DNA of 40,907 nt. Origin: Selenomonadaceae bacterium (GTDB lineage: Bacteria > Bacillota > Negativicutes > Selenomonadales > Selenomonadaceae). The stretch is from assembly GCA_017470715.1 (NCBI GenBank), contig JAFUYE010000052.1, positions 1-40,907 on the forward strand, in the 5' to 3' direction. Positions 1,811 to 27,251 of this stretch are shown in pieces; within the stretch, counting starts at the first letter, position 1, and the number at the start of each line of letters is the position of its first letter. Under the pieces are notes generated by a model that saw nothing but the letters and a program-made list of their open reading frames with translations, searched no databases and was not told where the DNA came from. The translations under genes were made by a program, and so were the position numbers.

Positions 1811-1828
1811 ATTTTTTGAGGTGGTAAC

Positions 1829-1903
1829 GTGACGTTGCATCCAACGGGAGCATACCGCAACGTTGTCGCAACCCGTGATAAAAAAATTTTTCGAGGTGAG
1901 TAA
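1829..1903 (+). CDS. possible 24-residue leader ORF before mutL
   Basis: A GTG-started mini-ORF, five bases after TTTTGAGGTG, whose TAA stop abuts the mutL ATG directly (TAAATG). It begins MTLHPTGAYR. Its first bases belong to the 19-mer AACGTGACGTTGCATCCAA (1826-1844), which recurs at 15719 and 15840 before the heptose kinase gene. It may be a translated insertion remnant that couples translation into mutL. Weak as a protein; strong as a repeat match. Confidence 0.4.
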   Translation: MTLHPTGAYRNVVATRDKKIFRGE

Positions 1904-14366: not shown

Positions 14367-15653
14367 GTGAATTTAACCAAATCTGCCGTTGCGTTCGCCG
14401 AAGCGAAAAAATTTATGCCCGGCGGCGTCAACAGTCCGGTTCGTTCGTATTCAAGCGTTGATTCAAATCCGCCGTTCATTTCGCACGGTAAAGGCTCGCA
14501 CATCTTCGACATTGACGGCAACGAATATATTGACTTCGTCGGCTCGTGGGGTCCGTTGATTTTGGGGCACGCTCACCCGCGAATTGTTTCCGCGCTGAAA
14601 AATGCCGTCGAACGCGGGACAAGTTACGGCGCACCGACTTTGCTTGAAACGCAACTTGCAAAACTCGTGCAAAAAATTTTCCCGTCAATGGAAGTCATGC
14701 GCATGGTGAATTCCGGCACCGAAGCGACAATGAGCGCGTTGAGAGTTGCTCGCGGATTCACCGGACGCGAAAAAATTATCAAATTCGTCGGTTGTTATCA
14801 CGGGCACAGCGATTCACTGCTTGTCAAGGCGGGCAGCGGCGCGGCGACGTTCGGCGAACCGTCAAGCCCGGGTGTCACTCGCGGCACGGCTCAAGACACG
14901 ATAACTTTGCCGTACAACGATTTATCTGCCGTCGAAAAAATTTTTGCTCAATGCGGCGAAGAAATTGCGGCAGTGATTGTCGAACCCGTCGCGGGCAACA
15001 TGGGACTTGTTTTGCCTAAAGAAAATTTCCTGCGCGGACTTCGTGACGTGACGGAAAAATTCGGCGCGTTGTTGATTTTCGATGAAGTCATGTGCGGTTT
15101 TCGAGTTTCGCTCGGCGGCGCACAGGAAAAATATAAAATCACGCCCGACTTGACTTGTCTCGGAAAAATTATCGGCGGCGGACTTCCCTGCGCGGCTTAC
15201 GGCGGTCGCGAAAAAATCATGCGCAACGTTTCGCCCGACGGACGAATTTATCAGGCGGGAACTTTGAGCGGCAACCCGTTGGCAATGACTGCGGGCATTG
15301 AAACTTTGACGATGTTGCTTGAAGAAAATTTGACCGAAAAAATTATCGCGAAGACTTCAAAACTTGTCGACGGTCTGAAATCTGCCGCGAAGTCAGTCGA
15401 CGTAAAAATTCAAACTCCGCAAGCCGGCTCAATGTTCGGAATATTTTTCAGCGAACAACCCGTAACGAACTTTGACGAATCAGCCGCCGCGAATCAAACG
15501 CAGTTCAAAAAATTTTTCGCCGCAATGCTTGAGCAGGGAATTTATCTTGCGCCGTCACAATTTGAAACGCTGTTTATGTCGGCAGTTCACAGCGACGAAG
15601 ACATTTCGCGGACAATCGACGCGGCAGAAAAAGCTTTCGAGGCGTGCTTATGA
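14367..15653 (+). CDS. hemL: glutamate-1-semialdehyde 2,1-aminomutase
   Basis: A 428-residue PLP enzyme making 5-aminolevulinate from glutamate-1-semialdehyde (C5 route). It has [10 protein letters not shown] near the N-terminus, [23 protein letters not shown] for phosphate binding, [10 protein letters not shown], and the PLP lysine in [11 protein letters not shown]. The GTG start follows AAGGAGG. Its TGA overlaps the ATG of a truncated heptose-kinase start (ATGA), suggesting that the kinase once followed hemL by translational coupling. Confidence 0.97.
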
Positions 15654-15826
15654 TTGAGCAGTTAAAAAATTTTGTCGCGAACAAAATCGACGCGTGCAAA
15701 GTTTTGGTTGTCGGCGGCAACGTGACGTTGCATCCAATTTTCGCGCCTAAGTTCCAAACTGTTCAAACGTTATTGCCGCGTGTCCTGCGTTGCGAAAATT
15801 TTTGCGGGAGGTCTGCGAATGATTGA
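15650..15826 (+). pseudogene. truncated first copy of the heptose kinase start, fused to an insertion-like sequence
   Basis: The ATG overlaps the hemL stop. The first 23 codons ([23 protein letters not shown]) match the start of the intact kinase at 16003 at most positions. Homology then stops abruptly at AACGTGACGTTGCATCCAA, and the frame reads NVTLHPIFAPKFQ and ends 95 bases later. This looks like the original, translationally coupled gene start, cut off by an insertion. Confidence 0.7.
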
Positions 15827-15837
15827 CGAACTGAAAA
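15727..15837 (+). repeat. 111-bp direct repeat, copy 1
   Basis: Identical to 15911-16021 except for one base (15740). It starts GTTGCATCCAATT, holds AAACTGTTCAAACGTT, a TTTTTGCGGGAGG ribosome-binding site, and the first codons of the kinase (ATG 15819, MIDELK). Confidence 0.95.
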
Positions 15838-16010
15838 GCAACGTGACGTTGCATCCAATTTGTTTGAGCGTGTTAATCATCCAAACTGTTCCGTCGCTTT
15901 CAAAGCGACCGTTGCATCCAATTATCGCGCCTAAGTTCCAAACTGTTCAAACGTTATTGCCGCGTGTCCTGCGTTGCGAAAATTTTTGCGGGAGGTCTGC
16001 GAATGATTGA
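15819..16010 (+). pseudogene. second truncated heptose kinase start fused to the insertion-like sequence
   Basis: ATG 15819 with the same strong GGGAGG site as the intact gene. It reads MIDELK for six codons and then passes into NVTLHPICLS, again exactly at AACGTGACGTTGCATCCAA. It contains a GTCGCTTTCAAAGCGAC hairpin (15891-15907) and stops just past the true kinase start. It is either an open leader or a decayed gene start. Confidence 0.65.
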
Positions 16011-16021
16011 CGAACTGAAAA
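15911..16021 (+). repeat. 111-bp direct repeat, copy 2
   Basis: Second copy of the repeat at 15727-15837, 184 bases downstream. It provides the ribosome binding site and first codons of the intact kinase at 16003. One base differs (15924). Near-identity suggests a recent duplication. Confidence 0.95.
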
Positions 16022-16971
16022 ATTTTGTTGCCGACGGAATTCCTGCGTGTAAAATTTTGGTTGTCGGCGATGTGATGCTTGACAAATATTATTTCGGCGA
16101 AGTCACGCGCATTTCGCCCGAAGCTCCCGTGCCGATTGCTCACGTGCTTGAAGTTCGCGAAACTCTCGGCGGCGCGGCGAACGTTGCACACAATCTGGCG
16201 TTGCTCGGTTGCCAAACGTCGATTATCGGGCAGGTCGGTCGCGACAATCACGGCGAAATTTTTTTAAGTAAACTGAAATCTCTCGGTGTGAACTTTTCGG
16301 GCATGATTCAAACTTCAAAGCCCACGACGACGAAAATTCGCGTGATAAGCGGACATCAGCAGATGATTCGTCTTGACTTCGAGGACGCAAGCGAACTTGA
16401 CATTTCGGCGACGGACGAACTGTTAAAAAATTTTTCCGCACAACTGCCGAACGTCGACGCGGTGATTATTTCCGATTACGGCAAAGGCGTCTGCACGAAA
16501 AAAATTTGTCGCGAAATTATTTCCGCGTGTCGTGCGCAAAAAAAATCAGTCGTCGTTGACCCGAAGGGCGACAACTGGCAAAAGTATTTCGACGCAAGTT
16601 TTATCACGCCGAACTTAAAGGAATTCAACGCCGTATTGCCGAAAAAAATTCCGAACGTCGACGCCGAAATTGAAAATTCTGCGCGAAAAGTTATCGACGA
16701 ATTCAACCTGCGCGGGCTTGTCGTCACCCGTTCGGCTGAAGGATTAACTTTAGTCGACGGCGAAAAAATTTCACATGTCAAAGCGCGTGCACAGGAAGTT
16801 TTCGACGTTTCGGGCGCGGGCGACACGGTTATTGCAGTTTTCGCGTTGGCGTTGGCGGGCAAAATCGATTCGGAATTTGCGGCGTATCTTGCGAACGTTG
16901 CGGCGGGCGTCGTCGTCGCGAAAGTCGGCACCTACGCAGTTTCCCGCGACGAACTTTTGAACGCGCTGTAA
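16003..16971 (+). CDS. rfaE1: D-glycero-beta-D-manno-heptose-7-phosphate kinase (RfaE1/HldE N-domain type)
   Basis: A 322-residue PfkB-family sugar kinase. GGAANVAHNLALLG near residue 56 and DVSGAGDTV near 268 are the family signatures, the latter with the catalytic Asp. The overall pattern (DVMLDKYYFGEVTRISPEAP) fits RfaE1/HldE, which phosphorylates heptose-7-phosphate on the way to ADP-heptose for LPS core. The nucleotidyltransferase half of HldE is absent, so it must be separate. The ATG 16003 follows GCGGGAGG. Two truncated copies of its start lie upstream. Confidence 0.9.
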   Translation: MIDELKNFVADGIPACKILVVGDVMLDKYYFGEVTRISPEAPVPIAHVLEVRETLGGAANVAHNLALLGCQTSIIGQVGRDNHGEIFLSKLKSLGVNFSGMIQTSKPTTTKIRVISGHQQMIRLDFEDASELDISATDELLKNFSAQLPNVDAVIISDYGKGVCTKKICREIISACRAQKKSVVVDPKGDNWQKYFDASFITPNLKEFNAVLPKKIPNVDAEIENSARKVIDEFNLRGLVVTRSAEGLTLVDGEKISHVKARAQEVFDVSGAGDTVIAVFALALAGKIDSEFAAYLANVAAGVVVAKVGTYAVSRDELLNAL

Positions 16972-22956: not shown

Positions 22957-23550
22957 TCACCTCCGCATTAATCGCACGAAAATTAAAGTTGCGTCGACGA
23001 CGGCGGCAACGAGCACGATTACAACTTCCGAATCCATTTCGACGCCGGACGAACTGATTGGCGACGGGTGCAACGAAAAATACATGCGCGGAATTACGAA
23101 AACCAAAAACGGCACGGTCAGCACGCTCAACAGCGAATAGACAGCCGAAACTTTTGCGCGAATTTTTTCGTCGGTGATTGCCGCCCGCAACGTCAAATAC
23201 GCGCCGTAAATCAAAATCAGCACGAAAATTGTCGTCTGTCGCGGATCCCAATTCCAATACGCGCCCCAAGTCAACTTGCTGAAAATCGCGCCGCTTATCG
23301 TCGACAGCAACACGAAAACAAATCCCAACTTTGCCGCACGTGCGCTCAATTCGTCGAACGAAAAATTATTTGTCCGCAAAAATTTCGACGCGAAAAATGC
23401 ACTCGAAAAAAATGCAACGACCGAAACCCAAGCCGTCGGCACGTGGAAAAAAATTATTTTCGCGAGTTCGCCCAAACCTTTAATCGGCGGGACAAAAAAA
23501 ATAATTGCCGCGACAATTCCCGTCGTCAGCAGAAAAATAATTTTGTTCAT
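22957..23550 (-). CDS. ccmC: CcmC-like heme exporter / cytochrome c assembly protein
   Basis: A 197-residue protein with about six membrane segments. The WGAYWNWDPRQT stretch is the tryptophan-rich heme-binding motif of the CcmC/CcsA family, and conserved His residues appear in FFHVPTAW and near SLHPSP. CcmC works with CcmAB to present heme to CcmE. The start is the ATG at 23550, behind GAGGAAAAATTTTC. The first 14 codons are repeated 152 bases upstream. Downstream lies the deacetylase gene. Confidence 0.9.
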   Translation of the reverse strand: MNKIIFLLTTGIVAAIIFFVPPIKGLGELAKIIFFHVPTAWVSVVAFFSSAFFASKFLRTNNFSFDELSARAAKLGFVFVLLSTISGAIFSKLTWGAYWNWDPRQTTIFVLILIYGAYLTLRAAITDEKIRAKVSAVYSLLSVLTVPFLVFVIPRMYFSLHPSPISSSGVEMDSEVVIVLVAAVVDATLIFVRLMRR

Positions 23551-23551
23551 G
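23507..23551 (-). repeat. 45-bp direct repeat, ccmC start (gene copy)
   Basis: The first codons of ccmC and a few bases around the ATG, matching 23659-23703 over 45 bases. See the paired copy. Confidence 0.9.
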
Positions 23552-23563
23552 AAAATTTTTCCT

Positions 23564-23703
23564 CATGAATAGTCGAACACATTTAAACGCGGTGACGAGC
23601 TGAAACTGTTGAAACGTTGCGGATTACACCAGCTGTTTGGGCACTTTTTAAAAGTGCCGCCGCGACAATTCCCGTCGTCAGCAGAAAAATAATTTTGTTC
23701 ATG
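23564..23703 (-). pseudogene. duplicated ccmC start with insertion-like sequence
   Basis: From ATG 23703 the first 15 codons (MNKIIFLLTTGIVAA) match ccmC (45-bp identical stretch 23659-23703). Then the frame enters unrelated DNA with a GGCACTTTTAAAAAGTGCC hairpin, and then, read on plus, AAACTGTTGAAACGTT (23603-23618). This last 16-mer matches the insertion upstream of rfaE1 except at one base. A new ribosome-binding site and start of ccmC follow. Confidence 0.7.
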
Positions 23704-23708
23704 ATACC

Positions 23709-25771: not shown

Positions 25772-25920
25772 TTGAATCAACTTTTCTTTGCTTGCCCAAA
25801 GACCCGCTTTAAAAGCGGGGGAACAGTTAGGTCAGCTCATGCCCGCAAATTTCACATCCTGTTTCAATTGCGGACGAGGCGCAAATGCTTGCCAGCGCGC
25901 ATTTGCCCATTCCGGCCTCA
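25772..25920. repeat. modular intergenic repeat, mosaic copy
   Basis: Begins like the 19669 copy (CAACTTTTCTTTGCTTG), but the right hairpin arm is replaced by another hairpin, CCCGCTTTAAAAGCGGG (25803-25819). Then come CCTGTTTCAATTGCGGACG, a long hairpin GCAAATGCTTGCCAGCGCG with CATTTGC, and CGGCCTC. The hairpin module matches that at 38295, not that at 19815. The stretch 25608-26004 holds this repeat, the regulator's promoter and a terminator, and no gene. Confidence 0.8.
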
Positions 25921-27122: not shown

Positions 27123-27251
27123 AAAATTTTTTCGTCATTATACCAGAAAAATCTTCGCGTAAAAATTTTTTCGTCACCGTACCGGAAAAATCTTCGCGTA
27201 AAAATTTTTTCGTCACTGTACCGGAAAAATCGTCGCGTAAAAATTTTTTCG
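27123..27251. repeat. 39-bp tandem repeat (3.3 copies) carrying the M48 promoter
   Basis: Three complete copies (27123-27161, 27162-27200, 27201-27239) and a partial fourth. On the minus strand, each has TTTTTC, then GGTATAATG in the copy nearest the gene, GGTACGGTG and GGTACAGTG in the others. The first is a good -10 box, the other two degenerate. The unit length is a multiple of three and stays open on the minus strand. Confidence 0.9.

Follow-up and report, generated by a model that had tools for sequence, protein, structure and literature searches.

The window analysed here, a stretch of 40,907 nt, belongs to a ruminant Quinella-type MAG and carries a hemL-like gene for a class III aminotransferase (14367..15653, plus strand; PF00202, E=7e-84) followed by three starts of an rfaE1-like gene. 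The stop codon of the hemL-like gene overlaps the first of these ATGs (ATGA, start at 15650), which is followed by 23 codons before an insert breaks the frame; the second, at 15819, is followed by six codons, and the third, at 16003, opens an intact kinase gene of 322 aa (16003..16971, plus strand; PfkB family, PF00294, E=9.1e-47). The domain matches give families, and the narrower names hemL and rfaE1, which come from an earlier sequence-only reading and from our own recognition, are presumably apt. That reading had described the same three starts and the change of both truncated ones into one common sequence. Both indeed switch at GCAACGTGACGTTGCATCCAATTT, at 15717 and 15838, and the block that they share is longer than the 19-mer quoted at the time.

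The first start is broken after codon 23 by a full 64-nt element, E1 (15717..15780, plus strand), which is composed of GCAACG-TGA-CGTTGC, ATCCAA, a variable body and a closing CCGCG and is matched by our covariance model of the element, R2 (G000:C17:15717-15780, E=3.1e-15; G000 is the window's own genome). The 78 nt directly before it (15639..15716, plus strand) are a truncated upstream copy of the rfaE1 start, identical to 15992-16069 at 58 of 78 positions, and form the target copy paired with E1. The second start is broken after codon 6 by a 72-nt insert, E2 (15838..15909, plus strand), lying between the two copies of a 112-bp target duplication. The first copy (15726..15837, plus strand) takes in most of E1, the ribosome-binding site (RBS), the ATG and six codons, and the second (15910..16021, plus strand) is continuous with the intact kinase gene. 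The two copies differ only at 15740, so that the single mismatch previously reported for this repeat stands and its length of 111 bp becomes 112. E2 has a type A hairpin end at its left junction and an inverted type B hairpin at its right end (15893..15909, minus strand; GTCGCTT-TGA-AAGCGAC, then GGAACAG). As had been claimed, the inserts keep the truncated frames open, for 58 codons and a stop in the first case (15650..15826, plus strand) and for 63 codons and a stop in the second (15819..16010, plus strand). Since the broken frames end at a TGA that overlaps the following ATG (AATGATTGA), at 15819 and 16003 respectively, translational coupling could, to judge from the sequence, be retained.

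The proposal of a small dispersed element came with the suggestion to search the genome for the 19-mer, and this search returned 30 exact copies in the window's own genome and none of the reversed control. A further occurrence of the 19-mer in the window, at 1826 (shuffles expect 0.01 at up to three mismatches), is part of another type A copy (1824..1883, plus strand), bordered by the end of one gene and by a mutL-like gene with its start at 1904. A short repeat flanks this copy (1809-1823 and 1884-1898, 14 of 15 positions identical), which alone scores no higher than a shuffled control. The insert had been thought of as an insertion sequence; it is not one, since it encodes nothing and consists of a 21-nt hairpin core and a variable body. 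The 43 aligned copies on which R2 was built are 62-67 nt long and share the core, followed by a CGCG block, a middle that varies and the CCGCG end. The family as a whole comprises short non-coding inserts of about 40-115 nt between target copies, with 64 nt typical of a full type A element. One end is fixed, being the hairpin GCAACG-TGA-CGTTGC-ATCC or one of a related class, and the other is loose. Type A copies have no terminal inverted repeats (the 43-sequence alignment starts with GCAACGTG and ends in CCGCG, with no inverted match), and the composite insert E2, with hairpins of different types at its two ends, is an exception. None of the copies read formed a longer element with the same ends, and two small searches of Rfam gave no match above the gathering score.

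With the window's own genome counted apart, the 21-mer is present in 15 of 36 congeners; neither the 23 genomes from the class's other families nor the 397 further genomes taken from the phylum contain it. R2 matches 25 of the 41 genus genomes, all of them draft MAGs of 59-100% completeness, in a patchy manner (16 have no match), with 67 matches in the window's own genome, 84 in G022, 51 in G027, 49 in G024 and at least 129 in G010. At L032, L142 and L468 (around 17600) the element stands next to a repeated GACAGGCTGAG, and the surrounding sequences there look TPP riboswitch-like.

We gathered 150 distinct type A copies and dropped three with too little flank. A flanking direct duplication scoring at least 30 was found for 71 of the remaining 147 copies (array copies are counted separately, and the events are not all independent); among controls, this score was reached by 4 of 297 mismatched flank pairs and by 4 of 140 places chosen at random. 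Of the 71 duplications, 57 have a left copy that exactly abuts the hairpin's first base. The 44 duplications around single inserts are 18-158 bp long and 83-100% identical, and their inserts measure 40-142 nt (the longest contain array units). As its last base the target has G in 32 of these cases, A in 9, T in 2 and C in 1. A strong duplication is lacking in 76 of the 147 copies; among copies without one, 17 of 81 show at least 10 anchored matches versus 8 of 340 controls.

The duplicated targets include gene starts, gene 3' ends, terminator-like hairpins and non-coding DNA. The gene-context classes, derived from simple ORFs, are crude, with overlapping frames on both strands and several labels per site, and are used solely for the claim that 3' ends are targets too. 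Four hairpins adjoin a tRNA at zero distance, three of them at the 3' end, where they directly follow the CCA (tRNA-Pro at L035, tRNA-Arg at L352 and tRNA-Met at L353), and one at the 5' end of a tRNA-Leu (L130). The earlier idea that the element inserts near gene starts is thus right for rfaE1 and for a cytochrome c assembly gene in the window and too narrow in general, given the gene 3' ends, terminators and tRNA ends. The cytochrome c assembly gene (22957-23550, minus strand; PF01578, E=5e-26) has at its start a 46-bp target copy (23507..23552, minus strand), followed in the upstream direction by a 106-nt insert with the type C hairpin head GGCACTTT-TAA-AAAGTGCC-CAAACAG (23553..23658, minus strand) and by an upstream copy of the gene start (23659..23704, minus strand) that is identical to the first at 46 of 46 positions. 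The suggestion that the element leaves a new RBS and start behind is correct in that both follow the element; they belong to the copied target (a 112-bp copy of 99% identity in the case of E2 and a 78-nt copy of 74% in that of E1) and not to the element itself.

A scan for copy-insert-copy structures that was blind to the hairpin sequence covered 396 kb of G010 and 431 kb of the window's own genome and found 40 and 46 such structures, respectively; those without a terminal hairpin include coding repeats. A perfect terminal hairpin of at least 6 bp was present in 18 of the 40 and 11 of the 46, against 73 of 8000 (0.9%) and 59 of 9200 (0.6%) random stretches. The inserts have four classes of head with a common body: class A, GCAACG-TGA-CGTTGC-ATCC; class B, NNCGCTT-TRR-AAGCGNN-GGAACAG; class C, for example GGTTACTTT-TRR-AAAGTAACC-AAACAG; and class D, CAAGCG-TGA-CGCTTG-ACCC. 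The stems show compensatory changes. When type B sites were anchored on CTT-TNN-AAG and the linker only, the outer stem was fully paired in 45 of 48, in four kinds, with 0.19 expected (the copies are related and do not amount to 45 independent tests), and the type A outer stem is fully paired in 49 of 91. Type B loops read TAA in 30 cases, TAG in 11 and TGA in 4, and among 57 triloop hairpins of the G010 stretches whose stem is at least 7 long, about 45 have a TAA, TAG or TGA loop. Across the stretches L452-L491 of G010 and the window's own genome, the triloops of long hairpins are nearly always one of these three, with no TGG. Elsewhere in the window, at about 25803-25826, a type B hairpin and linker (CCCGCTTTAAAAGCGGGGGAACAG) stand right after CAAAGA, and in G010 this very head recurs after CTACTTTCTTT...AAAGA, as if within a longer repeat. 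The window also has a 51-nt direct repeat at 27123-27200 (score 39) whose 27-nt spacer lacks a hairpin; it may be a coding repeat.

Near-identical donors for the 106-nt and 72-nt inserts of the window were sought in the draft genome, and none was found. The best other match to the 106-nt insert covers 43 of its 106 nt at 91%, one match spans positions 4-106 at 70%, and the best for E2 covers 39 of 72 nt at 92%. In nine insertions that are recent and extend 39-43 nt past the core, the nearest other copy available scores only 0.58-0.79. These weak matches of the body might mean that donors are missing, that the body changes fast or is made anew, or that gene conversion homogenises the target copies while the body drifts. 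By eye, the body of E2 had suggested the reverse complement of the adjacent target, an idea that we rejected on 137 copies, in which bodies paired with their own targets scored 15.24 and permuted pairs 14.85 (z 1.4).

The hairpin also occurs beyond Quinella. The exact 21-mer is present in 13 stretches of viral contigs (reversed control 0), and a compensated form, GCAGCGTGACGCTGCAYCCAA, in 15 such stretches and, in four copies, in one of the 397 other genomes of the phylum, a Bacillota genome. Allowing any two bases on each side of the stem added four stretches, one of them compensated and three not. Seven of the 26 distinct viral contexts directly follow a TAA or TGA (reading frames were not considered), none of the 26 has an abutting duplication, and the type B pattern was absent from the viral contigs. 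The 21-mer and its compensated form lie in phage contigs at L175-L187 and L338-L350, in some cases in frame within terminase genes. In one terminase family of 41 loci, from which L231 was excluded as it did not fit the reading pattern, the hairpin is in frame in two of 40 readable relatives, the query being one, and is lacking in the other 38, two of which have a different extra loop at that place. Named phages gave five weak matches (E 0.7), all to another part of the query; with the 21-mers they gave only partial matches of 16-21 nt, and named plasmids gave none. The hairpins of phages and of the other Bacillota genome might share ancestry with the Quinella element, or might have only the hairpin in common with it.

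If the hemL-rfaE1 arrangement served rfaE1 as a stable leader or regulatory array, as its open frames and their stops overlapping the next ATG might suggest, it should recur in relatives. A scan of genome contigs with the kinase as query yielded 34 loci, from Selenomonadaceae, Selenomonadales and Quinella MAGs, many from ruminants, of which the 32 with a readable start were counted (the start is missing from L090 and L093). The 19-mer lies upstream of rfaE1 in none of these 32 congeneric loci, within the upstream 420 nt or the part present, and in 23 of them the hemL gene and the rfaE1 ATG overlap directly, the frame being open for 70 codons or more ahead of the ATG. The sequence-only reading had named a leader conserved in all close relatives as what would speak against an insertion, and had asked whether relatives lack the insert; they do, and we consider a leader very improbable. 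The other nine loci differ: L082, L061 and L064 carry inserts or repeats, and the rest have other upstream sequence. By eye, L082 has a related insert upstream of rfaE1, with its core partly lost and the start duplicated, and at L061 and L064 different short repeats (AGCTTTAAG-like and CTAGCAACTAG-like) lie between hemL and rfaE1. Clean empty sites exist for the element elsewhere, too. The insert at 1826 is missing from G016 and G021, which have 15 nt where the window has 99, and an array of two copies in the window's own genome (G000:C82), of the form target-element-target-element-target, corresponds to a single plain target in G016. The array of G010 in that same gene has a different hairpin. 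At the same gene end (L423, L424 and L426), G016 is clean, G015 has a copy in reverse orientation and G010 has an array of its own. An artefact of draft MAG assembly, to which the several copies at contig ends (for example C104:50, C132:9 and C154:38) might point, is hardly credible, because the architecture recurs in 15 separately assembled congeners and empty and filled sites alternate among genomes.

The triplicated start is therefore best read as two successive nested insertions rather than as a conserved leader, and with dispersal, the fixed hairpin junction, duplications, nesting and empty sites demonstrated, these insertions are very probably the work of a hairpin-headed element family that duplicates its targets. 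E1 would have inserted first, after codon 23, leaving a copy of the gene start on either side; E2 would later have entered the second start after codon 6, duplicating 112 bp that included most of E1. The last copy would still encode the entire kinase because the duplicated stretch contains the RBS and the start, and the two broken starts would persist as open frames ending on the next ATG. The upstream E1 target copy is only 76% and 73% identical to the two nearest congeners, to which the intact start is 90% identical. Since this copy is an outlier to the closest relatives and the E1 target copies are only 74% identical to each other, recombination or fast change must be invoked besides insertion.

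With regard to mechanism, the fixed hairpin end would be joined directly after a purine of the target and the loose end to a point tens of bases further upstream, which would duplicate the intervening stretch. We infer that this duplication might arise via staggered nicks and gap repair or via template switching, and that long duplications may be common partly by selection for insertions that leave the gene whole. Three enzyme families were considered as mobilisers, and none of them tracks copy number among the draft genomes. DDE_Tnp_1 occurs in 21 of the 41 genus genomes, the copy-rich G010 alone having 21 matches, and the direct repeats of IS1549 and IS1634 are given as 8-514 bp in the relevant passages of PMC2266710, both of which would suit mobilisation of an ordinary MITE in trans, by a transposase of the DDE or Y1 type, such as an IS1634-like one that makes long, variable duplications. 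However, DDE_Tnp_1 is absent from the drafts of G000, G014, G021, G022 and G027, which have 26-84 model matches, Y1_Tnp occurs in 6 of 41 genomes and among element bearers only in G014, as a fragment, and type A copies lack terminal inverted repeats, so that this explanation appears rather unlikely. Target-primed retroposition leaves insertions with one end precise and the other loose and with duplications of variable length, all of which the Quinella copies show, including ends that are loose or truncated. This would be a bacterial counterpart of SINE movement, in which an RNA with the complement of the hairpin at its 3' end would be copied at a nick, and a second nick would set the variable duplication. 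RVT_1 is found in 13 of the 41 draft genomes (for example twice in G000, once in G022, and in G033 and G036) but not in ten others of 59-100% completeness with at least 26 model matches each (G016, G010, G005, G020, G021, G024, G027, G030, G014 and G063), and we regard retroposition as distinctly unlikely. Insertion might also need no enzyme if replication forks switched template at the hairpin onto existing copies and then back to the target, with selection fixing the products. The loose distal end, the tandem arrays and composite inserts such as E2, in which a type A head is fused to an inverted type B end, are consistent with such switching, but 57 of the 71 duplications meet the hairpin precisely at its first base, and none of the inserts checked is a near-copy of another locus from end to end, which together leave it a rather low probability.

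If insertion by a target-duplicating element is the right reading, Quinella genomes hold dozens to more than 100 non-destructive insertions each, unlike any named element in the searches made, and these insertions spare the targeted gene because each tends to rebuild its target beside itself. Together with the empty sites of sister species, they would provide a large set of natural replicates for studying how long, variable duplications are made, a question open since IS1549 and IS1634, and gene-start calls in Quinella MAGs will be wrong where starts are duplicated. It is possible, if somewhat doubtful, that the family represents a categorically new kind of bacterial insertion, marked by hairpin ends whose triloop is a stop codon, by bodies that vary from nearly every independent insertion to the next, by duplications reaching about 160 bp and by machinery outside the three enzyme families tested. 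Phage contigs and one other Bacillota genome contain this hairpin in two compensated forms, and it often stands immediately behind a stop codon or the CCA end of a tRNA.

A literature search on the hairpin sequence and related terms, which covered open-licence papers only and is weak evidence of absence, returned no description of the element, and a word search of the Quinella genome paper (PMC9585023) found no mention of transposons, insertion sequences, mobile elements or phage. The closest precedent is IS1549 and IS1634, of the IS1634 family, for which the relevant passages of the report (PMC2266710) propose no mechanistic model. According to those passages they, too, make long direct repeats of variable length upon insertion, but they are transposase-coding insertion sequences of 1.5-2 kb, whereas the Quinella element is about 40-115 nt long, non-coding and headed by a hairpin. 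DDE_Tnp_1, moreover, is absent from several copy-rich Quinella genomes. REP sequences and their RAYTs are similar in that they are short hairpin-based repeats whose structure is maintained by compensation (PMC2817692). In contrast to that system, the element-bearing Quinella genomes lack a Y1 transposase, save for the fragment in G014. REPs are not known for producing target duplications. MITEs and small interspersed repeats such as RUP, BOX and RU are likewise short, non-coding, dispersed and sometimes located within genes. A typical MITE target duplication is a few bp, and the Quinella element differs in that type A has no terminal inverted repeats and its duplications run from 18 to 158 bp, with no short fixed length. 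Finally, the Rickettsia palindromic elements are short palindromic repeats within open reading frames, but there the insertion is merely in frame, whereas in Quinella the target is usually duplicated and the gene restored beside the insert.
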